DNA from: Tissierellia bacterium
Lineage (GTDB): Bacteria; Bacillota; Clostridia; Tissierellales; Peptoniphilaceae
Direction of reading: 5' to 3'
DNA length: 47,442 nucleotides
Assembly (NCBI GenBank): GCA_012728335.1
Contig: JAAYFG010000029.1
Span: forward strand, 1 to 47,442
This document shows, piece after piece, positions 7,401 through 29,665 of the stretch; within the stretch, counting starts at the first letter, position 1, and each line of letters starts with the position of its first letter. The notes beneath the pieces were generated by a model. It was not told where the DNA came from, did no database searches, and saw only the letters and a list, made by a program, of their open reading frames with translations. The position numbers and the translations under genes were made by a program.

Positions 7401-7815
7401 AACTGTTATAAAAAGTGAAAAAGGAGCTGTTGAATTTATCGAGACATCTATTGTTTTCAGCATAATTTTCTTTCTGATTTCAATGTTATTGATTATCACA
7501 CTTTTTACTATTAACAAGATTACATATAAAGAACAAAACTATATGCAATCTTTAGATATCTTAAACAACCAAGAAACAGACAACTCAAGAATTGTTAAAT
7601 CTAAAGGCTTGATATTTACAAAAGCATCACTAAAAGATGATTCAAAAACAGTGGTTGAAAAAAGAATTAATACACATGAATTCTTAAGAAAAATAGATTT
7701 ATCAAAAGATATAGTTAATGAACTTGCAAAATTGAAAATCAATGGTAAGTCTATTAGTTCAATTGTTGATAGATATATAAACTCAGCAAAAAAGTTAGGT
7801 GACATATTAAAATGA
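7366..7815 (+). CDS. TadE-like pseudopilin
   Basis: This 149-residue protein has an N-terminal pseudopilin signature: SEKGAVEFIETSIVFSIIFF, a charged leader ending in Lys-Gly, then a Glu-containing hydrophobic helix of about 22 residues. The rest is hydrophilic and probably lies outside the membrane. This architecture is TadE-like, a minor pseudopilin processed by the same peptidase as the pilin. The start is uncertain: TTG 7366 has AAGGG five bases upstream, while ATG 7384 has no good ribosome site. Both lie inside the end of the preceding pilin gene. The stop overlaps the next gene's ATG. Confidence 0.75.
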   Translation: MKEYKVMLKDFKTVIKSEKGAVEFIETSIVFSIIFFLISMLLIITLFTINKITYKEQNYMQSLDILNNQETDNSRIVKSKGLIFTKASLKDDSKTVVEKRINTHEFLRKIDLSKDIVNELAKLKINGKSISSIVDRYINSAKKLGDILK

Positions 7816-10802: not shown

Positions 10803-10810
10803 GAGGTAAT

Positions 10811-11263
10811 ATGAAAAAACTAATTTTAATTATTATGATATTGTTGTTATTTGTGACAGGATGTGATGACACAAAAGCTATGAGAGTTGTTGATCTAGAT
10901 GGTGTAAGTATAAATTTACCAAATAATTGGGCGAGAAAGAATGGTTCTAATGGCACATACCTAACGGATTTAAAGCAAGTGATATTATATGACAGCCTTG
11001 ATAAAGGTATGAATAATCAAGACATATTTAGTTATATCAAATCTAGTCTAAATTTTTATGATTTAGGTAAATTTCCGAGATCTTCACGTCTAGTAGTAGA
11101 TGTCGCAGAGAAAGATTTCGAAACAATTCTGTCTGGCCATATCAATGAGAGTAAACTAAATTTTAAGATAATAATTTTTGAAAATACTAGAACTAATTTT
11201 CTAATCGTTGTTGGTGATGATATGGAAGCGGTTGAAAAATTATATGATCAAATCATCAAGTAA
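10811..11263 (+). CDS. Small lipoprotein of the tad locus, function unknown
   Basis: This 150-residue protein has a lipoprotein signal peptide ending in VTGC (Cys18 lipidated), so it is anchored on the outer face of the membrane. The mature part contains VDLDGVSINLPNNWARKNG, reminiscent of the small alpha/beta PsbP-like or stress-type lipoproteins in which a sentence such as VSINLPNNW opens the domain. I do not recognise a specific family. It sits 8 bases behind the broken DUF5702-type gene and its end overlaps the next pseudopilin gene, so it is part of the pilus operon. A role as pilus assembly or anchoring lipoprotein (pilotin-like) is a guess from position. Confidence 0.7.
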   Translation: MKKLILIIMILLLFVTGCDDTKAMRVVDLDGVSINLPNNWARKNGSNGTYLTDLKQVILYDSLDKGMNNQDIFSYIKSSLNFYDLGKFPRSSRLVVDVAEKDFETILSGHINESKLNFKIIIFENTRTNFLIVVGDDMEAVEKLYDQIIK

Positions 11264-12311
11264 AGGGATCATAACCATTGAAGCATCTTTAGTATTGAGC
11301 GTGTTCTTTTTAGGTTTCATATTTCTTATAAATCTATCAATAAGTGTTTTTGCTGAATCTCAAACTAAAAAAGCGCTCAATTCAATGGCTCTTGAACTCG
11401 CCCACTATTCATATATCCTAGAAGAACTAAATCTTCTCGAAATAAGCGCTACTAGTGATGAAATATCTATTCTTGAGTCATCGGGTAAGATTATCAACAA
11501 AGAAGTTATAGAAAAACCTGATGATATTGACTTAGCATATATTTATAAGCAATTTAAAGAATTATTGCTAGATAAAACGACACAAAATATCAAGAAGTTA
11601 CTTTACAACAACCTGCTTAAAAAAATGGCGAAAGCTCATCTTATTAAATCATCTAGTTTGGTAGAAAAAAGCGTGGTAGCCGGTTATGACGGGATGGATT
11701 TTACTGAATCAAAAATTCATCAAAATACTGGTGAGATTGAATTAAATCTTAAATATAAACTCTCTGTAAGCGGTTTTAGTAGATTCAAAATTACTAGAAA
11801 TATAAGTCAGACTGCCTTTGTGAAGACAAATAATATGATTAAGCAATCAATTAAAGTAAATAAAAGTATATGGCATGAGAGCAACTTTGATAGAGGTAGA
11901 TTTTTTGTAGAATATTTTAAAAAGCACGCAAATGATCAGGTGATTAAGTCTGGTCAAGGTTTGGACTTTTTTGACCCAAGTACAAACACTGTTAAACAAA
12001 TGCACTCACTTAATATATTCAAGCCTTCCTATTCTGATATGAATGATGGAAACTATATACTTAAAGCTGATGAAACACAAAAAATCATAACTAAATATTA
12101 TAAAGATATGCTAGAAAATATAGTAAAAACAAATGGTAGGGTACTCTTAAATGATAATAGCTCAATAACATTGAATAGTGATATAAATACGACTTTAATT
12201 CTTGTAGTACCCAACGAGGCAGTTAAGTATAGCGCTTTTAACGCTTTAATTGACGATTTAAGAGCAGCTGGAGTTAGCGTAGAGTTATTTCACATGGAGG
12301 ATGCCTTATGA
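11244..12311 (+). CDS. TadE/TadG-like pseudopilin, large
   Basis: This is a membrane-anchored pseudopilin of about 355 residues. Starting at ATG 11244 gives a short leader, then SSKGIITIEASLVLSVFFLG: Lys-Gly before a helix with Glu at +5, the classic prepilin-peptidase and TadE signature. The remaining 300 residues are hydrophilic and predicted outside the membrane. An open frame extends 36 bases further upstream, but those residues would spoil the leader. The gene starts inside the preceding lipoprotein gene and overlaps the prepilin peptidase gene by 4 bases, consistent with coupled translation. Confidence 0.75.
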   Translation: MIKSSSKGIITIEASLVLSVFFLGFIFLINLSISVFAESQTKKALNSMALELAHYSYILEELNLLEISATSDEISILESSGKIINKEVIEKPDDIDLAYIYKQFKELLLDKTTQNIKKLLYNNLLKKMAKAHLIKSSSLVEKSVVAGYDGMDFTESKIHQNTGEIELNLKYKLSVSGFSRFKITRNISQTAFVKTNNMIKQSIKVNKSIWHESNFDRGRFFVEYFKKHANDQVIKSGQGLDFFDPSTNTVKQMHSLNIFKPSYSDMNDGNYILKADETQKIITKYYKDMLENIVKTNGRVLLNDNSSITLNSDINTTLILVVPNEAVKYSAFNALIDDLRAAGVSVELFHMEDAL

Positions 12312-15711: not shown

Positions 15712-16668
15712 ATGATTAAAGTAATAAGAAATTCTTTTGAACTTTTTAATGAAAAAAGACCTTTTTATATTGTTACAATTATAGATAAGACAGGTTCTTC
15801 GTCTAGAGAAATAGGAACAAGTATGATAGTTACAGAAAATGGTTTGGAATTTGGGACTATTGGTGGTGGACTCAAAGAGTTTAAAGCAATAGAGTATGGT
15901 CAATCAATCATAGATGATAAAATAAGCTGTAATAAAAAAATTCAAATGACAAAAGATGAAGCTGAGAGAACTGGAATGGCGTGTGGTGGAATGAATGTTC
16001 TGCGTTACGAATATATAGATCCTTCTAATCAGGTCAATGGAGAATATTTTGAGGAGATAATAAATAAATATGCTGATAATAAAGTCGAATTAGTGTATGC
16101 ATTAGATGACGATATAGGATTTAGTATCAGAATAAATGATGAAATTAGAAACTTCAGTAAGAGTAGTAATTTAAAGTCTGATAATCTATTTAGTCTAAAA
16201 ATAAAAGAGGAGATAATGGTATACATATTTGGTGGGGGACATGTGACAAAAGCATTGGTTCCAATATTAGATTATCTAAATATTAAGACTACAATAGTTG
16301 AAGATAGGGAAGATTTTTTAATTCAAGACAATTTTCCTAAATCTAAATTGATTTTAAAAGACTTTTCAGATTTAGGCAATTTACCAATAAAGGAAAAAGA
16401 TTACATATGTATTATGACTAGAGGACATAAATATGACAATCAAGTTTTATTGCAAGTAATTTTGAAAGAACCTAAATATATAGGTGTAATAGGCAAAGTT
16501 GCAAAAGCTAAAGCATTATATAATTTATTGGAAGAAAAAGGGTTGTCTGAGCTTGCTAAAGACAGGGTTTTTTCTCCAGTAGGCTTACCTATTGGTGCAC
16601 AAACTCCCGAAGAAATTGGTATTAGCATAGCTTCTCAAATAGTGCAGATTTATAGAAGTGATAAATGA
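15712..16668 (+). CDS. xdhC: XdhC/CoxI family molybdenum hydroxylase maturation protein
   Basis: This 318-residue XdhC/CoxI family protein is a chaperone thought to mediate sulfuration and insertion of the molybdenum cofactor into xanthine-dehydrogenase-type hydroxylases. The N-terminal domain has the family's FGTIGGGLKEFKAIEYG and TGMACGGMN segments, with the conserved Cys. The C-terminal Rossmann-like domain starts at MVYIFGGGHVTKALVPIL and contains ICIMTRGHKYDN and GVIGKVAKA. AGGAGA precedes ATG 15712. It is co-transcribed with mocA and lies upstream of the hydroxylase it probably serves (17658-21215). Confidence 0.9.
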   Translation: MIKVIRNSFELFNEKRPFYIVTIIDKTGSSSREIGTSMIVTENGLEFGTIGGGLKEFKAIEYGQSIIDDKISCNKKIQMTKDEAERTGMACGGMNVLRYEYIDPSNQVNGEYFEEIINKYADNKVELVYALDDDIGFSIRINDEIRNFSKSSNLKSDNLFSLKIKEEIMVYIFGGGHVTKALVPILDYLNIKTTIVEDREDFLIQDNFPKSKLILKDFSDLGNLPIKEKDYICIMTRGHKYDNQVLLQVILKEPKYIGVIGKVAKAKALYNLLEEKGLSELAKDRVFSPVGLPIGAQTPEEIGISIASQIVQIYRSDK

Positions 16669-16695
16669 TGGTTGTTTGTTTTATAGGAGGTAAAT

Positions 16696-17268
16696 ATGAG
16701 TATTAGTGCTATAATAATGGCTTCCGGTATGTCAGAACGAATGGGAGAAGATAAGCTAAAACTTTTATATAAGGGAAAGCCAATTTTTCAATATGTAGTA
16801 GATATAGTTAAAGATTTGGATTTTGTTGATAAAATTATTGTAACTAATGATGAAGAGATAACAAAATATTCTGTGGATAATGGATTAAGAGCAATAAAAA
16901 ATGACAATTTCCGTGTCGGTAAGAGTGAAAGCATAAAAATTGGTGTAAAAAATTCTTCAAAAGATACTTCTGGGTATATGTTTTTTGTATCAGATCAACC
17001 ACTTTTATCTAAGAAGACTGTAATTCAGCTGATTAACTGTTTTGAGCAGAACAATGACAAAATTGTATATCCACTATTTAATGGCAAAAAAGGAACTCCA
17101 ACAATATTCCCTATTAAACATAAAGAAAGCTTTTTTGAGTTAAAAGGAAATCAAGGAGGACTTATATTAATAGATGCAGATAACTCTATAAGTGTTAGAA
17201 TTGACACAGAAGAAGAGCATTTTGACATTGATACTAAAGAAGACTATAAAAAATTAACAAGTGAATAA
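16696..17268 (+). CDS. mocA: MocA-like molybdenum cofactor nucleotidyltransferase
   Basis: This 190-residue NTP-transferase-fold protein has the signature AIIMASGMSERMGEDKLKL at residues 5-23, a catalytic Asp in FVSDQPLL and a C-terminal FDIDTKEDYKKL. These are hallmarks of MocA-like enzymes, which join CTP to molybdopterin to form the molybdopterin cytosine dinucleotide used by CoxL-type hydroxylases. AGGAGG precedes ATG 16696. Together with xdhC it suggests that the neighbouring hydroxylase carries the dinucleotide form of the cofactor; that link is inference. The molybdopterin biosynthesis genes themselves are not in this window. Confidence 0.85.
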   Translation: MSISAIIMASGMSERMGEDKLKLLYKGKPIFQYVVDIVKDLDFVDKIIVTNDEEITKYSVDNGLRAIKNDNFRVGKSESIKIGVKNSSKDTSGYMFFVSDQPLLSKKTVIQLINCFEQNNDKIVYPLFNGKKGTPTIFPIKHKESFFELKGNQGGLILIDADNSISVRIDTEEEHFDIDTKEDYKKLTSE

Positions 17269-17282
17269 TAAAATAAATTCTA

Positions 17283-17320
17283 AAAACTCTTAAATATTTT
17301 TAAATATTTAAGAGTTTTTT
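17283..17320 (+). terminator. Rho-independent terminator after mocA
   Basis: A perfect 17-bp stem AAAACTCTTAAATATTT/AAATATTTAAGAGTTTT with a 2-base loop and further T. The stem is AT-rich but long. It separates the maturation genes from the hydroxylase operon. Confidence 0.85.
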
Positions 17321-17657
17321 AATACAGACAATAAAATACGATAAAATTAGTCATTAAATGTAAAACGTCTTATTTTATTGTTGATTTTAATGAGAAAGTA
17401 TGAACTTTTAGCTAAAAACACTTAAAAAATTTATGATTAAACTTAAACATGTTCTATAATGATGTTTTTTAATGACGATTTACATTTGATAAGTGAAGAA
17501 AATGTCTCAAAAGTCGATGAAATGCACATCTATCACGAAATGATAATGAATAATTAAAAAAGGTGTGCTATTATTAAGTTAATGAGTAATTAGTTTACTA
17601 AAGTAGGATGGTTTAAAGCGAATAAGTGTATATTTCTATTCGGGGGTGGAAGTTATG
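17321..17657. other. Intergenic region upstream of the molybdenum hydroxylase operon
   Basis: About 337 bases without a gene. It must contain the promoter of the 17658-24282 operon, but no TTGACA/TATAAT pair with good spacing was found. TATAAT occurs at 17455-17460 with only a weak TTATGA upstream, and TATTAT lies near 17570 without a recognisable -35. That is compatible with an activator-dependent promoter. No tRNA, hairpin or repeat was recognised. Confidence 0.5.
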
Positions 17658-18113
17658 ATGATTAATGTAGTAATAAATGATGAAAGAATTAGTGTAGAAG
17701 CTGATCCTCTAAAGAGGTTAATCGATTTTTTGAGAGATGATTTAGGATTAACTGGTACTAAAGAGGGTTGTTCAGAAGGTGAATGTGGTGCTTGTACAGT
17801 TATTTTAGACGGGGTTGCAGTTACTTCATGTACAGTATTGACAGGACAGGTAAATAATTCAGAAGTTATAACGATTGAAGGATTAGAAAAATCAGGTGAA
17901 CTTGACATACTTCAAACAAAATTCATAGAACACGGCGCTGTTCAATGTGGTTTTTGTACACCAGGATTTATAATGAGTGCGAAAGCGTTAATGATGAAGA
18001 AAAAGAATCCTACTTTAAGTGAAATTAAAACAGCTATTGAAGGCAATTTATGTAGATGCACAGGATTTGTAAAAATAGTCGAAGCAATTGATGCTGCTTG
18101 CAAGGAGGTATAG
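17658..18113 (+). CDS. Molybdenum hydroxylase, [2Fe-2S] subunit
   Basis: This small electron-transfer subunit (about 151 residues, CoxS/XdhC-type) belongs to a three-gene xanthine-dehydrogenase-family hydroxylase. The N-terminal plant-type ferredoxin motif GCSEGECGACTV and the C-terminal motif CGFCTPG...CRCTG hold the two [2Fe-2S] clusters that carry electrons from molybdenum to FAD. Tandem ATGs at 17655 and 17658 follow GGGGGTGGA; the second has the better spacing. The FAD subunit gene follows after 2 bases. No selenocysteine codon is involved. Confidence 0.95.
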   Translation: MINVVINDERISVEADPLKRLIDFLRDDLGLTGTKEGCSEGECGACTVILDGVAVTSCTVLTGQVNNSEVITIEGLEKSGELDILQTKFIEHGAVQCGFCTPGFIMSAKALMMKKKNPTLSEIKTAIEGNLCRCTGFVKIVEAIDAACKEV

Positions 18114-18115
18114 AT

Positions 18116-18964
18116 ATGTTTTATGCTCCAGAAAATGAAATAGAATTAATTGAATCTTTAAAGCTAGCAGATGATAAAACCTACATTATCGCAGGTGGAA
18201 CAGATTTAATTATAAAACTGAAAAACCGTAAAATTATAGACTACAGCATAATTGATATAAGTAAAATGCAGTCATGGAACTATTTGACTGAAGATGACGA
18301 TAATTATTACATAGGACCACTTATAACAATGACTGAGCTTTGTGACAACGATACCGTAAAGGAAAAATTACCTGCTATATATTGGGCTGCAAAGGAACTA
18401 GGGTCTACACAAATTAGGAATAAAGCAACAATTGGTGGTAATATTTCTAATGCCTCTCAATCAGCAGATACGCTTTTAAGTCTGTATGCATATGATGCCA
18501 AGATAAAGATTATAAATAGTTTAGGAGAAGAAAAAATCGTTGGAATAGAGGATTTTGTTGTAGGAAGAGAGAAAACGATTTTAAACCTCGGAGAAGCAGT
18601 TAAAGAGATAATTATAAAGAAAAAAGATAGAATTAGTACATTTAAAAAAGTCGGCTCAAGAAAAGCAGTAACAATTTCAAAAGTGAGTTGTGCTGTAGAA
18701 TTGCTGAAAAAGGACGAATTAGTTGGAAATATAAGAGTGTTTCTAGGTGCTGTAGGAATAAAACCTGTACGGGCAGAGTTGTTAGAAGCAGAGTTTTCAG
18801 GTAAGAAATTATCAGATGTAAGTCTTGATAGACTAAGAGAAGCAGCATTTAACGAAGTTGAAAAAGCGATACCTACTAGAGATTCCAGATTCTATAAAAG
18901 AGTTGCTATAGAGGGATTAATAGAGGAAGTGTTAGGAGATTTGATGCGCTATGAAAAACTATAA
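18116..18964 (+). CDS. Molybdenum hydroxylase, FAD-binding subunit
   Basis: This 282-residue FAD subunit (CoxM/XdhB type) passes electrons from the [2Fe-2S] clusters to the terminal acceptor. The FAD-binding loops YIIAGGTDLIIKLK and IRNKATIGGNISNASQSADT are present, and the CO-dehydrogenase flavoprotein C-terminal domain begins around VGSRKAVTISKVSCA. The second loop reads QSADTLLSL where many members have SPAADTxPAL, within family variation. The start ATG 18116 follows AAGGAGG at the end of the preceding gene. It overlaps the large subunit gene by 14 bases. Confidence 0.94.
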   Translation: MFYAPENEIELIESLKLADDKTYIIAGGTDLIIKLKNRKIIDYSIIDISKMQSWNYLTEDDDNYYIGPLITMTELCDNDTVKEKLPAIYWAAKELGSTQIRNKATIGGNISNASQSADTLLSLYAYDAKIKIINSLGEEKIVGIEDFVVGREKTILNLGEAVKEIIIKKKDRISTFKKVGSRKAVTISKVSCAVELLKKDELVGNIRVFLGAVGIKPVRAELLEAEFSGKKLSDVSLDRLREAAFNEVEKAIPTRDSRFYKRVAIEGLIEEVLGDLMRYEKL

Positions 18965-21215
18965 ATATGTAGGTAAGAGTATAACTAGAGATGATAGTTT
19001 AACTAGAGTTACCGGTGAAGCAAAATTCCTTGCAGATGTTAAAAAACAAAATATGCTATACGGAAAACTTATTTTAAGTGAACGTCCACACGCTGAAGTA
19101 GATTTTGATTTTGAAGAAGCATTGAAAATAGATGGTATAGTAGCTATCTATACATATAAAGATGTTCCTAAAATAGCTTATAACTCTATGGAGTGGTTTA
19201 CTGGAGTAACTGGTAAAAGAGATGAATATATTTTAAATGAGAAAGCAAGATATGTTGGTGATAGGATTGCTTTAGTAGTTGGAGAGACTAAAGAAATAGT
19301 TGAATATGCTATTAAGAAAGTCAAAGTAATATACACTGATCTTCCGGTAGTTGTAGGAATTGAAGAAGCAAAAAAAGATGAACATATAGTTCAAAGTGAA
19401 ACTAATCTAGGATTTAGAAAATACATCGAAACTGGAGATTATGAAAAAGCTAAAAGTGAAGCTGATTTTGTAGTAACAGATGTAGGTTCAACTCCAAGAA
19501 CTCATCACTTAGCAATTGAACCACATATTGCACTGGGTGAAATAGATGATTATGGGAATTTAGTAGTGTCTACTCCTTGTCAAATGGTATTCACTGTGCA
19601 AATGCACTTAGCTAGAGTCTTAGAAATTCCATTTTCAAAAGTAAGAGTTATTAAAGCAAATATGGGTGGATCATTTGGTGGAAAACAACAACCTATATTA
19701 GAAATGACTGCTGGCTTTGCTACTTGGAAATTAAAGAGACCTGTTATGGTTTATATGGATAGAGAACAGAGCATAATTGGTACTGTTACTAGAAATCCGA
19801 CTAAACAAAGAATAGAACTAGCAGTAAAAAAAGATGGTACTATTCTAGGACGGAAAGTTGAAGTTGAAATAGACGGTGGAGCATATGATACCAATAATTC
19901 AAGTGTAACAAATGCTTTAGCAAAGAAACTGTTCAGACTGTATAAATTTCAAAATCAAAAATTTATCGGTGAAGCATATTTTACTAACGCATTATTTGGA
20001 GGAGCTGCAAGGGCATATGGTGGTCCACAAGCACATGCTATAACAGAGATAAATATATCAAATGCTGCTAAAAAAATTGGAAGGGATCCTTGTGAATTCA
20101 GACTTAAGAATTTAATTGATCCATATGACGAAGATCCAGCAGGAGGACCGAATTTAGGAAAAGCAGCAATTAAAGAATGTATTATTGAAGGAATGGAAGC
20201 ATTTAATTGGAAAGAAAAATTTAATCACATAAGAGAGCAAGAAACTGAAAGATATGCTTATGGAGTAGGCGTAGCTGCAGTAACTCATAGTACTGGATAT
20301 TGGGGAACCTTCCCAGACTTTACCAATGTTGAAATGGTTTTAAGTGGTGACGGAACTGTATTGGCAAAAGTCGCAGTTCATGAGCAAGGCTGTGGTACTA
20401 TAACGAGTCTAACTCAAATGGCAGCGGAAGCACTGGATTTAGATGTAAGTAAAATAAATGTTACTGAAGCTGATACTTTCATAACTCCTTATGATTCGGC
20501 AGGGACACAAGCAAGTCGTGTTACATCGGTAAGCGGCGGGGCTTTGAAAGAGGCTGGAGAGAAGATCGTAGAAAAACTTTTTGACACTCTTCACAGAGTA
20601 AAAGGTTTAAACATAGAAGATTTAAATACTGACAATGGAATTGTAAAAGTGAAAAACTCTAGTGAAGAATACACTTATGGTGAAATCGCAATGATGAGAG
20701 AAAAGCATCTTCAAGATTATTTATCAGTATATGTAAATCATGAATCAACAGGAAATCCTGCATCATTGGCAGCATGTTTTGCTGAAGTTAAAGTTGATAA
20801 GAAGACAGGATTTGTAGAAGTAACAGATCTATTATCAGTACACGATATAGGTAAAGCGATAAATCCTATGTTAGTAGAAGGACAGATTCATGGAGGAACT
20901 CAATTTATATTGGGGATGGCCCTTTGTGAAGAGATAGTAATTGATTCTAAAGGATATGTTAAAAATGCTACACTTTCTAAATACCATACTTTAAATGTTC
21001 AAGATATGCCATATGTAAGAAGTATCTTAATAGAAAGTGAAGATGAATTAACGCCTTATGGAGTAAAGAGTATTGGTGAAATATCTGCAGTTGCACCTGG
21101 ACCAGCAGTAATTAATGCAATTAATCATGCATTGGGAACCAATATCACTGATTATCCTGCTAATCCAGAGAGGATAATTCAAAGCTTAGAAGAATTGAAG
21201 AAAGGAGAAGATTAA
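18951..21215 (+). CDS. Molybdenum hydroxylase, molybdopterin-binding catalytic subunit
   Basis: This 754-residue catalytic subunit of the xanthine dehydrogenase/CoxL superfamily hydroxylates carbons, typically in N-heteroaromatic rings, using water. Visible features are the N-terminal a/b hammerhead domain (VTGEAKFLADV), NMGGSFGGKQQP (cofactor contact), GGAARAYGGPQAHAITE (the FRGFG-like substrate/cofactor loop) and GVKSIGEISAVAPGPA with catalytic Glu710. The substrate-defining Arg of true xanthine dehydrogenases was not identified, and no Sec codon is present. Genes for an MIO-less lyase and a betaine transporter follow directly (1-base and 12-base gaps), so the substrate may be a product of that lyase, perhaps thiourocanate. 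Purine or nicotinate hydroxylase are alternatives. Confidence 0.93.
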   Translation: MKNYKYVGKSITRDDSLTRVTGEAKFLADVKKQNMLYGKLILSERPHAEVDFDFEEALKIDGIVAIYTYKDVPKIAYNSMEWFTGVTGKRDEYILNEKARYVGDRIALVVGETKEIVEYAIKKVKVIYTDLPVVVGIEEAKKDEHIVQSETNLGFRKYIETGDYEKAKSEADFVVTDVGSTPRTHHLAIEPHIALGEIDDYGNLVVSTPCQMVFTVQMHLARVLEIPFSKVRVIKANMGGSFGGKQQPILEMTAGFATWKLKRPVMVYMDREQSIIGTVTRNPTKQRIELAVKKDGTILGRKVEVEIDGGAYDTNNSSVTNALAKKLFRLYKFQNQKFIGEAYFTNALFGGAARAYGGPQAHAITEINISNAAKKIGRDPCEFRLKNLIDPYDEDPAGGPNLGKAAIKECIIEGMEAFNWKEKFNHIREQETERYAYGVGVAAVTHSTGYWGTFPDFTNVEMVLSGDGTVLAKVAVHEQGCGTITSLTQMAAEALDLDVSKINVTEADTFITPYDSAGTQASRVTSVSGGALKEAGEKIVEKLFDTLHRVKGLNIEDLNTDNGIVKVKNSSEEYTYGEIAMMREKHLQDYLSVYVNHESTGNPASLAACFAEVKVDKKTGFVEVTDLLSVHDIGKAINPMLVEGQIHGGTQFILGMALCEEIVIDSKGYVKNATLSKYHTLNVQDMPYVRSILIESEDELTPYGVKSIGEISAVAPGPAVINAINHALGTNITDYPANPERIIQSLEELKKGED

Positions 21216-21216
21216 C

Positions 21217-22713
21217 ATGGAAGTATTAAGACTAACCGGAGATCCCATAAGTATTCAAGATGTATATGATGTAGCATATCATTATAAACAAGTGGAGATA
21301 TCTGAAGAAGCAGAAGAAAGAGTTAGGGCTGCTAGGCAAGTACTTTTCAATATGGCGGCTGAGGGGAAACCTGTTTATGGATTAAACAGAGGAGTTGGCT
21401 GGAATAAGGATAAAGAATTTGATCAAGACTTCTTTGAAACATACAACAGAAATTTACTTAACAGTCACTGCTTAGGAGTTGAACCGTATCATCCAGATGA
21501 ACAGGTAAGAGCAATTCTATTGATAAGACTAAACAAGGCATTGACAGGACATACGGGAATTTCATGTGATTTATTATATCATTATAGAGACTTTCTTAAC
21601 TTCAAAATTCATCCGAGAGTTCCTATGAGATCTTCAATAGGTGAAGGAGATATAACGACTCTTTCTCATATTGGATTGGCATTTATAGGAGAAGAAAACG
21701 TAAGCTATGACGGGAAAATAATGAATTCAAAAGAAGCAATGGATTTAGTTGGGCTTAAACCTGCAACACTTGGACCAAAAGACGGTCTTAGCATAGTATC
21801 ATGTAACGCTCAAGGTGAAGCAATGACAGCTATATTACTAAAAGAATTAAAAGACATCATTGATATGTCTACGCTGATATTCTGCTTAAGTCTTGAAGGA
21901 CTAAATGGCGTAATGGAACAATTGAGAGAAGATGTAAATGAAGTTAGAGGCATAAAAGGGCAAAAGTTTGTAGCAACACAATGTAGAGAACACTTGGAAG
22001 GCAGTTTTCTTCATGAGCCTGATCCAGAAAGAGCGCTTCAAGATCCTTTGAGTTTCAGATGCGCGCATTCGGTAAATGGATCGCTGTACGATGCAATGGA
22101 CTATGTACTTGGTCAACTTTGTGTTTCAATGAACACTACAGATGATAACCCTTGTATAATAATTGAAGAGAATTCATCATTTGTAAGTGCAAACTTTGAA
22201 ATCACTTCATTGGCTATAGGGGTGGAAATGCTTGCAACTGCAATAAGTCATCTATCAAAAACTTCGTGCTATAGAATGATAAAATTAGCAGACCCAGAGT
22301 TTACTAAATTAAACAGATTCTTAACACCAAAAGAAGTAGATACTATAGCATATGGTACTATTCAAAAAACTTTCACTATGCTAGATACTCAAAATAGGGG
22401 ATTGGCAAATCCTTCTTCAATGGACTTTTATTCATTGGCAGGAACCATAGAGGATCATGCAAGTAATCTTCCATTGGCAACGTATAAAATGTTCCAAATG
22501 CTAGATAATATAAGATATATTATCGGGATAGAAGCGATGCACGCGGCACAAGCAGTAGATTTAAGAGGTAATATGAACCTTGGTAAAAATACTAAGAAAG
22601 CATATGAAATCATAAGGGAAGCAATTCCTTTTTATGATAAAGATAGGAACTTAAGCATTGATATTAAAAAAGCTTATGAACTTATCAAGTCAAAGAAATT
22701 ATTAGATATATAA
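21217..22713 (+). CDS. MIO-less aromatic amino acid lyase homologue, probable ergothionase
   Basis: This 498-residue member of the HutH/PAL superfamily has YGLNRGVGWNKDK (residues 54-66, where HAL has YGVNTGFG), ITTLSHIGLAFIGEE, PKDGLSIVSCNAQGEA and IEDHASN (matching HAL QEDHVSM). The Ala-Ser-Gly triad that cyclises to the MIO electrophile is absent: GxxGASGDLAPL becomes SSIGEGDITTL (residues 139-149), one residue shorter, with no Ser. Histidine ammonia-lyase chemistry is therefore unlikely. Ergothionase, which eliminates trimethylamine from ergothioneine to give thiourocanate, is a lyase of this superfamily reported to use acid/base catalysis instead. The adjacent BCCT transporter fits a betaine substrate. 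It is in one operon with the hydroxylase. Confidence 0.8.
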   Translation: MEVLRLTGDPISIQDVYDVAYHYKQVEISEEAEERVRAARQVLFNMAAEGKPVYGLNRGVGWNKDKEFDQDFFETYNRNLLNSHCLGVEPYHPDEQVRAILLIRLNKALTGHTGISCDLLYHYRDFLNFKIHPRVPMRSSIGEGDITTLSHIGLAFIGEENVSYDGKIMNSKEAMDLVGLKPATLGPKDGLSIVSCNAQGEAMTAILLKELKDIIDMSTLIFCLSLEGLNGVMEQLREDVNEVRGIKGQKFVATQCREHLEGSFLHEPDPERALQDPLSFRCAHSVNGSLYDAMDYVLGQLCVSMNTTDDNPCIIIEENSSFVSANFEITSLAIGVEMLATAISHLSKTSCYRMIKLADPEFTKLNRFLTPKEVDTIAYGTIQKTFTMLDTQNRGLANPSSMDFYSLAGTIEDHASNLPLATYKMFQMLDNIRYIIGIEAMHAAQAVDLRGNMNLGKNTKKAYEIIREAIPFYDKDRNLSIDIKKAYELIKSKKLLDI

Positions 22714-22725
22714 GGAGGTACTAAA

Positions 22726-24282
22726 ATGAGTGGCAAGAAATTAGATAAGAAAAACATTCGTTGGCAAGTATTTATTCCAGGTTTTGCTCGGACTTTATTA
22801 GCAGCAATTTATGGAATAGTAGATAGCCAAGGATTAGCAAAGGTAGCAAATGCGTTTTTCAACTGGTCGCTTGACAGATTCGGATGGTTCTATCAAATCA
22901 TTGTATTAGTAAGTTTATTCTTCGTAATAGCACTTTTATTTTCTAACAAAGGATCTATCAGAATCGGTGGTAAAGATGCAAAACCAAAATTTCCGTTTTG
23001 GACTTGGTTTGCAATGGCGCTTACAGGAGGCGTTTCAGCAGGAATCGTAACTTGGGGAGCTAATGAGCCATTGATTTACTTTGGTAATGTCTACGGGGAA
23101 TTAGACGCTCTAGGAATACAGGCATTTACTGATGAAGCAGCAAGGTTTGCAATAGGTAGATCATTTTACAACTGGTCTTTTATTCCGTATGCAATTTATG
23201 GACTTACAGGAGTGATTACAGCATATGTGTACTTTAATAAGAAACAAAGACTAGCGGTAACTTCTACCCTACAACCACTTTTTGGAGATAGAATAATGAC
23301 TGGTGGAGTTTCACATGGTATCGACACATTATCACTATTAGGTAATGTATTAGGCTTAAGTTCAGGACTAAGTGCATGTATAATCATAGTAACAACTGGA
23401 TTAAACTTCTCCTATAATGTACCAGATACACTATTGTTATTCGTGTTAGTTGGGTCCTTGATCATATTCTTATACACATTTTCTACATACATAGGGCTTG
23501 AAAAAGGATTACAGAAATTGGCAGGAGTAAATGCCTATTTTTACTATGGACTATTGATATTCTTAGTAGTAATAGGACCATCATTGTTTATATTTAAAAA
23601 CACTACAGCAGGATTAGCAACATGGTTCCAAAACTTCTTTGGATGGGGACTGGATCCTAATACCATAGGAGGACCTGCATTGGTAAATTCTTGGACATTA
23701 TTTGACTGGGCAGTTTGGATTGCATATGCTCCAGTAACTGGTATATTCCTAGGACAAATATCTTACGGAAGAACTATTAGAGAATTCTTAATAGTAAATG
23801 TTATCCTTCCAGCTACATTTGGTATCGTATGGTTTGGAGTTTGGGGTAATAGTGCTATTCATATGCAAATGGCAGGAGAAGTAGACTTAGTAGGTACAAT
23901 AGCCAATCAAAATGCGGTTACAGCATTATGGCAGTTCCTTCAAAATCTTCCATTTGGATTAGGGACTATAGTAATACCTATAAACCTATTAGTAGTAATA
24001 ATATCTTTCGTTACAGCAGCTGATGCAACATCTAATAACGTAGCATCACTTTGTATCAAAGACGTTCCAATAGGATCAGAAGCACCAGGATTCTTAAAAG
24101 CTATTTGGGGTGTAACAATAGGAGTTATAGCTATAGTATTAGCAGCATTTGGTGGTACAGAGCAAGGCGTAGAAGGTATGAAAGCGCTCGGTGCAGCAGG
24201 AGGATTCTTCGTGCTCTTCGTGTTCGTACTACAAGTAATATCTGCAATCAAGATGTTCTTTATAGATGAAGTAGTTGAATAA
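22726..24282 (+). CDS. BCCT family betaine/trimethylammonium transporter
   Basis: This 518-residue transporter has about 12 membrane helices and belongs to the betaine/carnitine/choline transporter family. It carries family motifs SAGIVTWGANEPLIYFGN (the GxGxVFWGxxEP motif of the substrate helix) and WAVWIAYAPVTGIFLGQISYGRTIREF (helix 8 with its Trp box). The extended charged tail typical of osmosensing BetP-type members is missing, so it is more likely a catabolic uptake system or a substrate/product antiporter. Directly behind the ergothionase-like gene (12 bases, with AAGGAGG), it is the candidate importer of ergothioneine or another betaine. A strong terminator follows. Confidence 0.92.
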   Translation: MSGKKLDKKNIRWQVFIPGFARTLLAAIYGIVDSQGLAKVANAFFNWSLDRFGWFYQIIVLVSLFFVIALLFSNKGSIRIGGKDAKPKFPFWTWFAMALTGGVSAGIVTWGANEPLIYFGNVYGELDALGIQAFTDEAARFAIGRSFYNWSFIPYAIYGLTGVITAYVYFNKKQRLAVTSTLQPLFGDRIMTGGVSHGIDTLSLLGNVLGLSSGLSACIIIVTTGLNFSYNVPDTLLLFVLVGSLIIFLYTFSTYIGLEKGLQKLAGVNAYFYYGLLIFLVVIGPSLFIFKNTTAGLATWFQNFFGWGLDPNTIGGPALVNSWTLFDWAVWIAYAPVTGIFLGQISYGRTIREFLIVNVILPATFGIVWFGVWGNSAIHMQMAGEVDLVGTIANQNAVTALWQFLQNLPFGLGTIVIPINLLVVIISFVTAADATSNNVASLCIKDVPIGSEAPGFLKAIWGVTIGVIAIVLAAFGGTEQGVEGMKALGAAGGFFVLFVFVLQVISAIKMFFIDEVVE

Positions 24283-24287
24283 TAAAA

Positions 24288-24336
24288 AAAGAAAATAGTC
24301 CTATTACCTCAAGGTAATAAGACTATTTTCTTTACT
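24288..24336. terminator. Bidirectional terminator between the BCCT gene and lysR
   Basis: The stem AAAGAAAATAGTC/GACTATTTTCTTT continues, after one mismatch, through TATTACCT/AGGTAATA with a 2-base loop. A-rich and T-rich flanks let it serve both convergent transcripts. Confidence 0.92.
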
Positions 24337-24397: not shown

Positions 24398-25318
24398 CTA
24401 TACTTTGAAAAGATTATTTATTTCATTAATAAAATCTTTAGCTATTTCTGACAAGTAATAATCTTCTCTTTTAATCCAACCTATTATGGATTTTATATTT
24501 ACATCATTTAGCACTAAGGTTCTTAGATTATCTGTTATATTTGAATTATAAGCACATCGAGTATCAGAACTGATATAGTAGGCATCTGTATGTTTAAGAA
24601 GTTCATAAATAGCAGAGCGTGAATTTACTATAAACTTATTATTGTTGACTGGAATTTTTAGTCTAGAAAATATGTCAGAATAGGGGCCTATATTTAAGTG
24701 GGAATGTACGATCATAGGAAAATTTGATAAATAATTCACGTTTATATTATCGTTATCTAAGTTAAAAAGAGGATTACCCTCGCCAACTAAGACACATATG
24801 TTCAGTTCAGACAAAGGAAAGAACTGAATTTTTTTTGTTTTAAATTGTTGCATATAAAATTTTTTATAACAATCCCAAATTCTGAAAACACCTAAATCAA
24901 CTTGTCCATTTGCAACATAGTCAATAGTCTCATCTCCAAGACCATCAAATTGGTGTATATGAATACCAGAGAGACGGTTTAATTTATACATATCACTACA
25001 TATGTTAGATACAAATCTAAAACCATTACTTGAAACGCTGAAATCTGAATAGTTTGAAGTAGTATTTTTTATTAGTAAGTGATTTAGTTGCATTATTTGA
25101 TCATAAATAGGAATTATGTATGAAACGAAATCGTTTCCAAAAGAAGTTAGCGATACCCCTTGATTGTTGCGTATGAAAATTTGTTTATTTAATTCGCTCT
25201 CTAATTTTATAATAGAGTTTGAGAGAGCTGATTGGGAAACATATAAATTTTTTGCTGCTTGGTTAATTGATTTTGTTTTTGCAACCTCTAAAACATATTT
25301 AAATTGTTCAAAAGTCAT
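24398..25318 (-). CDS. LysR family transcriptional regulator
   Basis: This 306-residue LysR-type regulator has an N-terminal winged helix-turn-helix (MTFEQFKYVLEVAKTKSINQ then AAKNLYVSQSALSNSIIKLE) and a C-terminal effector domain of periplasmic-binding fold. It is transcribed divergently from the SSS symporter operon (125-base gap) and convergently with the Mo-hydroxylase/lyase/BCCT operon. Such genes usually control the divergent promoter, with a pathway intermediate as inducer. It could regulate both flanking operons. The effector domain is somewhat diverged (motif QVDLGVFRIWD rather than xLDLxI) but intact. Confidence 0.92.
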   Translation of the reverse strand: MTFEQFKYVLEVAKTKSINQAAKNLYVSQSALSNSIIKLESELNKQIFIRNNQGVSLTSFGNDFVSYIIPIYDQIMQLNHLLIKNTTSNYSDFSVSSNGFRFVSNICSDMYKLNRLSGIHIHQFDGLGDETIDYVANGQVDLGVFRIWDCYKKFYMQQFKTKKIQFFPLSELNICVLVGEGNPLFNLDNDNINVNYLSNFPMIVHSHLNIGPYSDIFSRLKIPVNNNKFIVNSRSAIYELLKHTDAYYISSDTRCAYNSNITDNLRTLVLNDVNIKSIIGWIKREDYYLSEIAKDFINEINNLFKV

Positions 25319-25350
25319 ACTAACACCTCATTACATATAACCGTAATACG

Positions 25351-25379
25351 ATTATATAATAACCAAATTGAATAATCAA
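25351..25379 (-). promoter_or_regulatory. lysR promoter overlapping twin palindromes
   Basis: On the minus strand, -35 TTGATT (25379-25374), a 17-base spacer and a perfect -10 TATAAT (25356-25351). The -10 lies inside palindrome ATTATATAAT (25351-25360), which recurs identically at 25379-25388, 28 bases centre to centre. The two copies are candidate LysR binding elements for autoregulation and divergent control. Confidence 0.6.
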
Positions 25380-25443: not shown

Positions 25444-26835
25444 GTGGTTAGTTTTTTAGACTGGATAGTGATAATTGGATACATGTTGGCAATGGTAGGA
25501 ATAGGAGTGTATTTTAAAACAAGCGAAAGTTTAAGTTCTTTTGCAATTGCAGATAAAAAGCTAGGCTTATCTGTTTTAACTGCAACTTTATTGGCAACTG
25601 CAGTGGGAGGGGGTTCGCTTACTGGTGGTGTAGGTAACAGCTTTGCTAGTGGGCTTATAGAAGCTCCAAAAGTTATTATATTATTAGGAATAAATATCTT
25701 TATGGGGTTATTTGTAGCTAAAAAAATGAGAGATGTGGGAGGATTTACTGCACCAGAGATGCTAGGAAGAGTCTATGGAAAAAACTGTCAATTTATTGGT
25801 GGAATCTTTTGTTCTATTTATATGATGGGAGCAGGACCAGCAATGCAATCTATTGCATTGGGAAGTTGTATACACGTGATGCTTGGTATAGATATGAAAT
25901 TAGGTATGATAATAGGTATGATTTTAATACTAGCATATACTTTGACAAGTGGTATGTGGGGAGTAGCGATGACGGATTATGTTCAATTCATTTTTTTAAC
26001 TTTAGGAGTATTAATTACTACATTCTTTATCTTCAAAGATGCAGGAGGATGGGAGTCTATTTCTTCAAATGTTCCAGCAGAACATTTGAAAGTAGATACA
26101 ACTGGTGCATTGAAAATAATTGCTGCAACATCATTACCAGTATTGATTGATGGAAATCGTTATGCACGTTTCTATTCTGCAAAAGATGGGAATACAGCTA
26201 GATTAGGTACTTTAATAGCTTCCATACCTCAAAGTTTACTAATTATACTAACTATAGTTTTAGGTATGGCAGCTGTAAATTTATTACCTGCTGATACCCA
26301 TAAGGATGTAGTTTTTTCAACATTATTGCTTAATTATTTACCTTCAGGAATAAAAGGTATTTGTATAGCTGCGTTAATTGCCGCAATAATGTCAACAGCT
26401 GATTCATACATGTTAACAGGAGCTACAAACTTTTCAGTGGACATTTATAAAACAAAAATAAATCCTAATGCTAGTGATAAGCAAATGTTAATTGTTACAA
26501 AAATTGGTGTACTAGCCATAGGGTTGATAGGGTTGGGTTTTGCATTAGTTTTGCCTGATATAATGTCTGTTTGGACTTTAAGCTCTACTGCTTATGTCGG
26601 AGGATGCCTAGTTCCAATGCTGTATGGTATTTTTTTCAATAAAAAGAAATCCTATAAAGCGGCATTAATAGCGATGTTGTGTGGTGGAACACTAGCATTA
26701 GTTCTTGATATGAAAGGATTTGTTTTCTTGGGCCTTCCAGCTATAGTATATGGAGTGATATTGAGTGCTATTTTATTGTTTGCAATAACTCCGTTTGCTA
26801 AGGATGCAAAATATGTCGATGTAAGGAACAAATGA
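25444..26835 (+). CDS. Sodium:solute symporter (SSS family)
   Basis: This 463-residue polytopic symporter of the SSS family has about 13 predicted helices. Features include ATLLATAVGGGSLTGGVGNSF in the first substrate/sodium region and AALIAAIMSTADSYMLTGATNFSVDIY, the classical SSS helix-8 signature. The start is GTG 25444 after GAGGAGGG. Substrate cannot be read from sequence: proline, pantothenate, short acids and nucleobases are all transported by relatives. As first gene of the LysR-linked operon with ring-opening hydrolases it may import a related small nitrogenous acid. A 35-residue membrane peptide gene follows after 14 bases. Confidence 0.9.
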   Translation: MVSFLDWIVIIGYMLAMVGIGVYFKTSESLSSFAIADKKLGLSVLTATLLATAVGGGSLTGGVGNSFASGLIEAPKVIILLGINIFMGLFVAKKMRDVGGFTAPEMLGRVYGKNCQFIGGIFCSIYMMGAGPAMQSIALGSCIHVMLGIDMKLGMIIGMILILAYTLTSGMWGVAMTDYVQFIFLTLGVLITTFFIFKDAGGWESISSNVPAEHLKVDTTGALKIIAATSLPVLIDGNRYARFYSAKDGNTARLGTLIASIPQSLLIILTIVLGMAAVNLLPADTHKDVVFSTLLLNYLPSGIKGICIAALIAAIMSTADSYMLTGATNFSVDIYKTKINPNASDKQMLIVTKIGVLAIGLIGLGFALVLPDIMSVWTLSSTAYVGGCLVPMLYGIFFNKKKSYKAALIAMLCGGTLALVLDMKGFVFLGLPAIVYGVILSAILLFAITPFAKDAKYVDVRNK

Positions 26836-26849
26836 ATTAGGAGGTAGTC

Positions 26850-26957
26850 ATGGATACTTTAGTTTATGCTATTATTTTAATAATGTTAGGTTTTGTAATT
26901 TGGATGATTTATCAGTTTATAAGAGAGTGGCCAAATTACTCAAGAAAGAAAAAATGA
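26850..26957 (+). CDS. 35-residue single-pass membrane peptide, possible symporter accessory
   Basis: This short open frame has a strong ribosome site (GGAGG, then ATG 26850) and encodes 35 residues: one hydrophobic helix (about residues 4-22, YAIILIMLGFVIWMIYQF) and a basic tail ending SRKKK. Positive charge at the C-terminal end suggests a tail facing the cytoplasm. Position, 14 bases behind the SSS gene, recalls small accessory subunits encoded next to other symporters. I do not recognise the family. It is below the length many gene callers accept. Confidence 0.65.
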   Translation: MDTLVYAIILIMLGFVIWMIYQFIREWPNYSRKKK

Positions 26958-26981
26958 TAGTTATTGTTAGAGGAGTGTAAA

Positions 26982-27704
26982 ATGAAACCTATTATATTAG
27001 TTACTGCAGGTATAGAAATTAATGTTAGAGAATATGAGCAACTATATTTATATAAAAACTATTCTGATTCAATTATTAATGCAGGCGGAATACCAATTAT
27101 TCCTTGTACAAAAAATAAAAGTATGTTGAATGAATTAATTAGTATATCTCAAGGATTGGTATTAACTGGTGGAGGGGATATTCTACCAAGTAAATATGGG
27201 CAATTAAATAGAGGGAAATGCTACGACTATAATATTTGGAGAGATGAATTAGAGATAGATATATGTAAAGAGTTTATAAAGAATAATAAACCTATTTTAG
27301 GGATATGTAGAGGGATGCAAATAATAAATATTGTTCTTGGAGGGACATTAATACAGGACATAAGTAACGATATTGGAATTGAACATAAATACGATAGCTT
27401 ACATTCAGTATATTCTATTGAAGGATATTGGATAAATAAGTTGTTAGGAGATACTTTTATAGTAAATAGCTATCATCATCAAGCAATTGAGCAGTTAGGA
27501 GATAGTTTAATATCCATTGCTTTTTCAGAAAATGGGAAGATCATTGAAGCAATACAACATGAAAACTTACCAATAATAGGAGTTCAATGGCATCCTGAAA
27601 GAATGATAGGTGATAATAGAATAAGATCTAATAAAGGCAGTATGGAGGAAATATTCAAGTATCTAATATATTTAGCAAAAACAAATGTAAACATTGATAA
27701 TTGA
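26982..27704 (+). CDS. PuuD-like C26 family gamma-glutamyl hydrolase / class I amidotransferase-fold amidase
   Basis: This 240-residue protein of peptidase family C26 is related to gamma-glutamyl-GABA hydrolase PuuD. The start is ATG 26982 after AGGAG. It carries GLVLTGGGDILPSKYG, the nucleophile elbow ILGICRGMQIINIVLGGTL with catalytic Cys, YHHQAIEQLG and IIGVQWHPERM with the catalytic His and Glu. No synthase domain is fused, so it acts as a hydrolase. No polyamine genes are nearby; with the ATC-hydrolase-like genes that follow, it may cleave a glutamyl or carbamoyl-type amide arising in the same pathway. The exact substrate is unknown. Confidence 0.85.
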   Translation: MKPIILVTAGIEINVREYEQLYLYKNYSDSIINAGGIPIIPCTKNKSMLNELISISQGLVLTGGGDILPSKYGQLNRGKCYDYNIWRDELEIDICKEFIKNNKPILGICRGMQIINIVLGGTLIQDISNDIGIEHKYDSLHSVYSIEGYWINKLLGDTFIVNSYHHQAIEQLGDSLISIAFSENGKIIEAIQHENLPIIGVQWHPERMIGDNRIRSNKGSMEEIFKYLIYLAKTNVNIDN

Positions 27705-27756
27705 ATCATTAACTACATAGAATAAATTTTACAATGTAATATCAGAGGAGGGTATT

Positions 27757-28587
27757 ATGAACGGAATCGATGAATTAGAAATCCAAAACTTGCACGATAC
27801 TTGGTGTATATTATACGGTTCTCTATCCAAAATATTTGATAAAAGTACTACTGGCGAAGCATTATTAAGAAACGCAATTAGATTATACGGAAGTTTTATT
27901 GGGAGGAAAGAGTTAGATAGTCATATGCAAAATATGATTAAACCTAATGTAAAAAATTTTTTTATATTTCCGTATAACAGGTTTTATGATCCTAGATTAT
28001 ACGTAAATAAACAAAACTTAAATGAACAAGTTGGAATATTTGATGTATTGAGATGTCCTTTTGCCAATTTTTTTAGAAACTCTAATGATAGTATCAACGG
28101 AAAAATTTTCTGTGAAGAATTTATGCATTCTTGTTTTAAAGAATATTCAAAAGACATAGCTCAAGTCAACATATCAGAAATGCTATCTGATAAAACATAT
28201 AATTATTGCAGAATTGCTATATATTATAGACCAGGTAATGTAGGTTTAGAAGAATACAAACAACACTTTGATTCATTTAATGAAACCAATATAGAAACTA
28301 ATGGAGTTTCACAAAATAAATTATTAGCAAGAAAAATTTGGAATGAAAACTCTAGTCTTTTAGTTGAAGCTTTTTGTATTATAAATAATAATGATGAAAA
28401 AATTACAAATGCGCTAATAGAAACGGCAGAAATTATATCTAGTTTATTAGAGAAACATTCAATAAACACTAATAATGAAATAAATCTTGAATTTATAAGA
28501 AATAATTGTTCTATTAACATTGACTGTGACGAAACAAAGATATTTAGCATATTTAAGAAAACACTTCTTAAGCAGTTAAATATTTAG
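27757..28587 (+). CDS. ATC hydrolase family protein, copy 1
   Basis: This 276-residue protein is related to L-2-amino-thiazoline-4-carboxylic acid hydrolase, the Pseudomonas enzyme that opens a thiazoline ring to N-carbamoyl-cysteine. Recognisable family elements are GEALLRNAIRLYG at the N-terminal helix, RCPFANFF, a central FCEEF with paired acidic residues, AQVNISEML, and NYCRIAIYYR at the end of the domain. The tail of about 90 residues is helical and less conserved. GAGGAGGG precedes ATG 27757. It is a tandem paralogue of the next gene: both share CPxA, CEEF, QVN and YC. Which ring compound it acts on is not known. Confidence 0.75.
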   Translation: MNGIDELEIQNLHDTWCILYGSLSKIFDKSTTGEALLRNAIRLYGSFIGRKELDSHMQNMIKPNVKNFFIFPYNRFYDPRLYVNKQNLNEQVGIFDVLRCPFANFFRNSNDSINGKIFCEEFMHSCFKEYSKDIAQVNISEMLSDKTYNYCRIAIYYRPGNVGLEEYKQHFDSFNETNIETNGVSQNKLLARKIWNENSSLLVEAFCIINNNDEKITNALIETAEIISSLLEKHSINTNNEINLEFIRNNCSINIDCDETKIFSIFKKTLLKQLNI

Positions 28588-28598
28588 GAGGAGTTAGT

Positions 28599-29492
28599 AT
28601 GTATTCAAAGTTTGAAAAAGAAATTATCAATATGCAAGATAGTTATACTTTAATGTATGGTTTCATATCTGAAACTATAATTAACGAATTGGGTGAAATA
28701 GGAGATTTAATAGTACGTGAAGGGACACGTAGATATGGAAGAGATAGAGGAATAAAAAGACGAGAAGAACATATTAAAAATAATATCAATGTAAATATGC
28801 TCAGTCTCTTCTCAATATCAAGTGATTTACCATCTGATCCTAGATTTAAAAGGAATTTATCTAAATTAACCGAGGAGGAAAGAAATTCTCACACATTAGT
28901 ATGCCCGATGGCCGACATCTGGAGCAAATATGGAATGAAAAAAATTGGAAGAATATATTGCGAAGAATTCCACAAAGCAAGTTATGAAGAGTATGGCTTT
29001 GGATATACACAAGTAAATTTATCTAAAACTCTGACTCAAGATGGCGATAACTATTGTGATTTTCACGTTGTTTTAAGAAAAAGCAATGTCCCCCCAGAAT
29101 TAAGGGATGTTTGCTTTCATGAAGTAGAATGTAATGACAATGAGGACATTAAGGAAAATGATTCGATTTATGCTAAAGAAGGATTTTCATCACTATGTAT
29201 ACGAGTATATTATTACATTTTAGAGGTATTACAAGAGTATTCACCAGAATTAGCAGAAAAAATTATATTAAAATCTTTAGAATTATGGGCTGAAAATTCG
29301 TACAATAGATTGAAAGAGTCGTCTTTTGTAAGAGGTGAAAATCTTGACTATGAATTTGTTAACAATAATTTTCCTTTAAAAATTGATATTAACACAGAGC
29401 CATTATGGGAAAAGTATAACAAATATAATTGCAAATTATTGTTCCAAAAAGGTTTTTATAATAATTTTCTACCTAAATTTAAAAATGAATAA
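28599..29492 (+). CDS. ATC hydrolase family protein, copy 2
   Basis: This 297-residue paralogue of the preceding gene is closer to the ATC-hydrolase family consensus: GDLIVREGTRRYGRDRGIKR, VCPMADIWSKYG, IGRIYCEEFHKASYEEYGFG, TQVNLSKTLTQDGDNYCDFHV. The Cys and Glu/His residues of these blocks are the likely active-site or metal-binding positions; which ones are catalytic is not visible. It lies 11 bases behind copy 1 with AGGAGGAG before ATG. Divergence between copies suggests two different subunits or two steps rather than simple gene dosage. It is the last gene of the operon and a terminator follows. Confidence 0.8.
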   Translation: MYSKFEKEIINMQDSYTLMYGFISETIINELGEIGDLIVREGTRRYGRDRGIKRREEHIKNNINVNMLSLFSISSDLPSDPRFKRNLSKLTEEERNSHTLVCPMADIWSKYGMKKIGRIYCEEFHKASYEEYGFGYTQVNLSKTLTQDGDNYCDFHVVLRKSNVPPELRDVCFHEVECNDNEDIKENDSIYAKEGFSSLCIRVYYYILEVLQEYSPELAEKIILKSLELWAENSYNRLKESSFVRGENLDYEFVNNNFPLKIDINTEPLWEKYNKYNCKLLFQKGFYNNFLPKFKNE

Positions 29493-29504
29493 TGAATAAT
29501 AAAA

Positions 29505-29550
29505 AATATAAACACTGATATTAAGTTATCGATATCAGTATTTATATTTT
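29505..29550 (+). terminator. Terminator at the end of the SSS/ATC-hydrolase operon
   Basis: AATATAAA/TTTATATT and ACTGATAT/ATATCAGT form one long stem with a single C-A mismatch, a 10-base loop and a short T-run. The stem is AT-rich. Confidence 0.7.
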
Positions 29551-29593
29551 ATTGTAAATAAGATATTTACAATAAATCTTTATAATATTTTAT

Positions 29594-29648
29594 GTATGAA
29601 AAACCTCTTGATTAAGATGAAAATGCTTAATCAAGAGGTTTTTTCATA
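29594..29648. terminator. Strong second hairpin between the ATC-hydrolase operon and the Rrf2 gene
   Basis: The core stem AAAACCTCTTGATTAAG/CTTAATCAAGAGGTTTT (17 bp, loop ATGAAAATG) extends through TATG/CATA with one extra T. A-run and T-run flank it on both sides. No gene converges from the right, so it is a back-up terminator or a remnant element. Confidence 0.75.
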
Positions 29649-29665
29649 TAAAAGCCATAAATATA

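Follow-up and report, generated by a model that had tools for sequence, protein, structure and literature searches.

A recurrent LysR-linked operon encoding paired ATC-hydrolase-like proteins, adjacent to but probably outside the ergothioneine pathway of a Tissierellia bacterium

L-2-amino-thiazoline-4-carboxylate (ATC) hydrolases of the AtcB type are short proteins of family PF14196, ~170 residues long, with three conserved cysteines. PMC5847659 describes the ATC hydrolase, V4R and heme-NO-binding domains as alike, with a three-cysteine cluster common to the V4R and ATC hydrolase domains. We analysed an operon of a Tissierellia bacterium that encodes two longer relatives of these enzymes, termed proteins a and b, together with a sodium:solute symporter (SSS/SSF), a 35-aa membrane peptide and a C26 hydrolase. 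It lies on contig JAAYFG010000029.1, whose whole stretch of 47,442 nt is called the window; coordinates without a locus name are window positions. Directly upstream stands a module of the kind described for gut ergothioneine breakdown, with ergothionase, a BCCT transporter and a xanthine-oxidase-type desulfhydrase. The explanation we favour, with confidence evenly balanced for and against, is that the operon serves import and hydrolysis under LysR control, apart from the ergothioneine genes, and that a and b form a two-subunit V4R-fold hydrolase. Most likely it imports an amino-acid-derived heterocycle or an N-blocked amino acid, which is then hydrolysed in two steps, and this function is probable in outline only.

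The operon and its recurrence

The original prediction listed an SSS symporter, a 35-aa membrane peptide, a C26 enzyme and two ATC-hydrolase-like proteins at 25444–29492, and this gene list is correct (Table 1). Gaps between the genes measure 11 to 52 bases. A homologue scan of named genomes, using an alignment of four long forms as the query, gave 30 loci; with L025 these make 31 other loci, or 32 with the window. The order LysR, SSF, C26, a, b is identical in L032 (Bacterium 1xD42-67) and L037 (uncultured Firmicutes, genome G521), and in both the small peptide also lies 3' of the SSF gene. Identities to the window proteins in these two loci are 55% and 54% for LysR, at the same position, 75% and 74% for the symporter, and 48% and 46% for C26. 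Because the same gene order recurs in L032 and L037, the operon is more than a chance arrangement, and its earlier description as a coherent LysR-linked set, joining tandem divergent ATC-hydrolase paralogues to a C26 amidase and a dedicated symporter, is borne out. The five-gene operon is a real, recurrent catabolic module, part of a widespread yet uncharacterised gut-bacterial import-and-hydrolysis set built on a paired enzyme. In line with its supposed undescribed status, no description of such a module was found in the papers searched. A plasmid search returned no match.

Full-length long forms are rare. Besides the genome of the window, 2 of 397 phylum genomes hold a copy, and a search of 120 relatives gave only weak matches, in four genomes. 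Carriers include Lachnospiraceae, Oscillospiraceae and others; Emergencia has a single form. The scan also gave loci in [Clostridium] asparagiforme and Oscillibacter valericigenes, both of them culturable.

The symporter scores well above the cut-off of its family (Table 1). A similar small peptide follows the symporter in 12/12 other SSF loci, and the 35-aa peptide is therefore a real gene; it is likely a small subunit of the symporter. NCBIfam contains no family fitting this peptide, which may correspond to the 'symporter small accessory protein'. The C26 gene has its first possible start at TTG 26964 and a better one at ATG 26982.

Table 1 Features of the operon and its borders in the window
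Feature	Position	Strand	Details
Hairpin with T-runs, separating lysR from the ergothionase/BCCT operon	24288..24333	.	20-pair stem; fold z-score -9.4; probable terminator
LysR-type regulator	24398..25318	-	HTH_1 61.1 bits; divergent from the operon, just outside 25444–29492
Palindrome in the lysR/symporter gap	25335..25357	.	11-nt arms, 91% complementary, spacer 1 nt; candidate LysR binding site
SSS/SSF sodium:solute symporter	25444..26835	+	PF00474 118.9 bits, cut-off 22.8
35-aa single-helix membrane peptide	26850..26957	+	
C26 (class I glutamine-amidotransferase-like) hydrolase	26982..27704	+	PF07722 173.2 bits, cut-off 20.5
ATC-hydrolase-like long form, protein a	27757..28587	+	Homologue of b
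ATC-hydrolase-like long form, protein b	28599..29492	+	PF14196 47.6 bits, cut-off 28.1
Hairpin 3' of the protein b gene	29496..29555	+	-17.3 kcal/mol, z-score -5.6; probable terminator
Second hairpin, ahead of the next operon	29593..29650	+	-28.8 kcal/mol, z-score -10.0

The paired long forms a and b

Proteins a and b are the only ATC homologues found in their genome and are 27% identical over 275 columns (BLAST, E 2e-23). Protein b belongs to PF14196 by profile score; a itself gave no match in Pfam. Of 49 aligned relatives, 48 match PF14196. The a/b pair occurs in 20/32 loci: 18 in the tree, the window included, plus L038 and L060, where antisense ORFs masked the genes (the a gene in L038) and only tblastn found them. 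In all 18 tree loci, the a gene lies directly upstream of the b gene. With a midpoint root, the tree places the a proteins (18; split 93/83) and the b proteins (21; 100/99) in separate clades. Because the pair is present in 20/32 loci, a directly precedes b and the clades are separate, we read a and b as an old pair and, from these sequence patterns, as probably a two-subunit enzyme.

Other arrangements also occur. In L050 the pair is of a different type and its b is broken, and L055 and L056 have identical ATC proteins. Paired long forms of a third type, with one short partner of 215–274 aa, are found in L033, L039 and L050, beside or replacing the a/b pair. At L044 3–4045, near an a/b pair, consecutive genes encode a short ATC-like protein, a fumarate-reductase-like flavoprotein, a small ferredoxin-like protein and a cysteine desulfidase relative; a similar flavoprotein is encoded in L035.

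We counted conservation over 55 full-length copies, omitting 3 of 58 proteins that were shorter than 250 aa; two of these three represent the third, shorter type (L033, L050) and lack R82. In b numbering, R82, C102, C121, E123 and C153 are invariant in 55/55 copies and E122 is present in 54/55. H125 is found in 21/21 b rows versus 1/18 a rows, which suggests that one subunit, a, is altered in its active site.

For comparison with the short forms, 16 rows were tried, of which 6 were not extracted (ORF on the opposite strand) and 1 gave the wrong ORF, leaving 9 usable; L020–L022 fell outside the comparison. The long forms are homologous to the AtcB type over the first ~155 residues and share its three cysteines (55/55 long forms, 9/9 usable short rows). 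They differ in length, reaching ~300 residues through an added helical C-terminal part, and in carrying CEEFH and DPR motifs; at the H125 position all 9 short forms have Asp. R82 is missing from the short forms, and so, for the most part, are E122/E123. The long forms also stand as a tandem pair with other operon partners. Since the residues around the cysteines differ from those of the short Pfam forms, the PF14196/ATC name does not fix the substrate.

These differences bear on whether the operon follows the true ATC pathway, from L-ATC, the cyanide–cystine adduct, through N- or S-carbamoylcysteine to cysteine. We regard this as distinctly unlikely: it can draw on the PF14196 match and the three common cysteines, and it is opposed by the altered residue set and by a window operon that has neither a racemase nor an M20-type carbamoyl-amino-acid hydrolase.

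A sequence search of solved structures with the ATC proteins gave nothing useful, and folds were compared from AlphaFold (AF2) models, which are confident (pLDDT 94.3 for b and 92.7 for a). The best match of both is 6aq3_E, with a Z-score of 7.4 over 151 residues at 4.1 Å for b and 9.0 over 150 residues at 4.0 Å for a. All top matches of the N-terminal domain (residues ~4–167) come from one group, comprising TRAPP/Bet3 subunits, the V4R sensor domains of MopR, PoxR and DmpR, and H-NOX. This result covers the first ~165 residues, ahead of the helical C-terminal part. Foldseek with b returned no E-value under 0.001, and the viral fold library gave weak matches only.

The same fold matches would suit binding or scaffold proteins, with a and b as non-enzymes like the V4R sensors and TRAPP subunits. 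We consider this quite improbable, as the R, C, C, E, C set is strictly invariant and transporters and hydrolases often adjoin the genes; in addition, the title of a reference cited in the literature places a purified hydrolase among the founding family members. Unlike the V4R sensors, a and b are not fused to a regulator and are instead flanked by transport and hydrolase genes.

The adjacent ergothioneine genes

The window at 15712–24282 encodes XdhC- and MobA-like maturation proteins (by eye), an XDH-type three-subunit enzyme, an ergothionase without the MIO motif and a BCCT transporter. By sequence, the lyase is an ergothionase: it scores 935.5 bits to the solved ergothionase 6s7j, and GEGD replaces ASGD, with loss of the Ala-Ser-Gly MIO motif that HutH of the same genome keeps as ASGD. 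The set is likely complete for conversion of ergothioneine to urocanate and H2S. In gut ergothioneine breakdown, a xanthine-oxidase homologue cleaves the C–S bond, as cited in PMC12771579, and a thiourocanate desulfhydrase releases H2S, as cited in PMC13405746; the XDH-type genes of the window would suit such a desulfurisation of thiourocanate. Because sulfur is removed by a xanthine-oxidase homologue in the route as cited there, and the window carries genes of this kind, a thiohydantoin step is unnecessary. The genome also encodes HutU with HutI beside it (HutI by eye) for the resulting urocanate; since the genome has a canonical HutH as well, the role of both may lie only in histidine use.

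The original prediction held that the operon opens a 2-thiohydantoin or hydantoin propionate ring derived from ergothioneine. It rested on a real neighbour, the ergothionase operon, and G521, one of the 2 other genomes with the exact operon, does have an ergothionase-grade lyase and the module. This tie to ergothioneine is nevertheless not borne out, and we now hold it very improbable. No relative of the window ergothionase, BCCT, XDH-type, XdhC or MobA genes was found in any of the 31 ATC loci. Counting lyases with E below 1e-80 as ergothionase-grade, 1 of 30 ATC genomes has one, versus 4 of 397 phylum genomes, so there is no enrichment (Fisher p 0.31; L057, which lies in the L033 genome, was omitted from genome searches). 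The module forms its own operon with its own hairpin end, and this hairpin and the convergent LysR gene lie between the two operons. Ergothionase, BCCT and XDH-type genes recur without nearby ATC genes in L078 (G521:C5) and L079 (G368:C22). With linkage in 0/31 loci, physical co-occurrence of the two operons fails; that they never occur in one genome is not literally true, since G521, home of L037, holds both on separate contigs (641-bit ergothionase match). The five-gene operon thus probably lies outside the neighbouring ergothioneine pathway.

Some features of the ergothioneine and urocanate genes stand apart. The L079 module also holds a HutU-like protein of 547 aa (by eye; 36% match to HutU of the window genome), a candidate dedicated hydratase. 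At L086 5241–11505 (contig C3 of the window genome), a large regulator-like gene (877 aa) lies just ahead of HutU and HutI, and a similar one (1017 aa) adjoins the BCCT–ergothionase genes of L078.

Operon partners and candidate substrates

Importers accompany the long forms in other genomes: SSF is present in 12/31 loci, and elsewhere mostly Opp- or Pot-type ABC genes are found. Amide hydrolases do so as well, with C26 in 11 of the 31 loci, a D-aminoacylase-like enzyme in 6 and two M20 types in 6 each; M20 or D-aminoacylase-like genes share the run in L025, L035, L038, L040, L041, L042, L047, L049, L053 and L058. Co-location of C26 in 11/31 loci compares with 0.26 expected from the 47 copies that the 30 genomes contain (P 7e-15). 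This partner pattern fits import, then ring or amide opening, then release of an amino acid.

The window C26 resembles PuuD and the C26 gamma-glutamyl hydrolases in profile and in its Cys-His-Glu triad, of which Cys and His are kept in 12/12 aligned copies and Glu in 11/12 (Asp in L046). Its score of 74.3 bits does not reach the PuuD equivalog cut-off of 266 bits, and no polyamine genes were seen adjoining it. The C26/PuuD family acts on gamma-glutamyl amides. C26 might be the principal enzyme, acting on a compound of gamma-glutamyl or beta-aspartyl type and leaving a and b to act on the cysteine- or aspartate-like moiety released, for example an aspartate-family amide. L032 and L050 both have adjoining genes of the asparaginase I and aspartate aminotransferase Ic types (scored for asparaginase in L032 and for aminotransferase in L050, the latter with 619.8 vs 435; the counterpart in the other locus was read by eye). 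L050 also has a racemase of the Asp/cysteate-racemase family, which exceeds the cut-offs for cysteate racemase and for general amino-acid racemase alike, and a nitrilase-superfamily gene occurs in L032, L033 and L037. We think this C26-first order unlikely on balance, given that 20/31 ATC loci have no C26 and that the window operon has none of the asparaginase, aminotransferase, racemase and nitrilase neighbours.

Other neighbours are of the cysteine type and add to the case for the true ATC route considered above. Relatives of L-cysteine desulfidase lie near L033, L040 and L044 (3 observed vs 0.20 expected, P 0.0011), and a CuyA/D-cysteine-desulfhydrase-type gene heads the L046 run (458.9 vs NCBIfam cut-off 450). 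A search of the window genome for CuyA gave three distant matches, all under the cut-off. The L046 operon (7293–11975) consists of the CuyA/D-cysteine-desulfhydrase type, C26, ATC a, ATC b and a YeiH-type exporter, and the divergent Opp operon there ends with a second PALP-like gene (by eye). Both kinds of neighbour are weak hints to the substrate. Cysteate, true ATC, beta-cyanoalanine and carboxymethylhydantoin are candidates at which they hint without deciding.

Returning to the import-and-hydrolysis reading, we infer a heterodimer, a metal, an order of steps and a substrate class as follows. The symporter and its 35-aa partner would import an amino-acid-derived five-membered heterocycle or an N-blocked amino acid. 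Together, a and b would form a two-subunit hydrolase of V4R fold that opens a C–N or C–S bond, its metal probably held by the three invariant cysteines C102, C121 and C153; MopR contains zinc. E122/E123 and, in b only, H125 may supply acid–base groups, and R82/R160 may hold a carboxylate. The C26 amidase would free the amino group, after or before the a+b step, a role that M20 peptidases or D-aminoacylase-like enzymes may take in other operons.

Several points weigh against this reading. A single ATC-gene type is present in 11/31 other loci, so a is not always needed, and the separation into a and b clades depends on midpoint rooting, with a split support of 93/83 for a. The fold Z-scores are modest, and domains of the V4R/TRAPP/H-NOX fold often bind ligands or act as scaffolds, making a non-enzymatic role possible. 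The neighbours point two ways, to the cysteine type (L033, L040, L044, L046) and to the aspartate type (L032, L050).

Taken further, the proposal becomes tentative, and we would sooner expect it to fail in some part than to hold throughout: gut Clostridia may use a two-subunit V4R-fold metallohydrolase, with the full catalytic set in b and the His lost from a, to open an imported S- or N-containing ring that stems from the diet or the host, with amino acids of the cysteine or aspartate type as end products. No description of such an enzyme class was found in the literature searched. Separating the operon from ergothioneine averts a false pathway assignment. Long-form ATC-hydrolase-like pairs accompany importers in many gut bacteria, and the family takes its name from short Pseudomonas enzymes. 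If the pairs are indeed two-subunit ring-opening hydrolases, the common annotation 'ATC hydrolase' would be misleading, and an unknown nutrient route of the gut would become testable.

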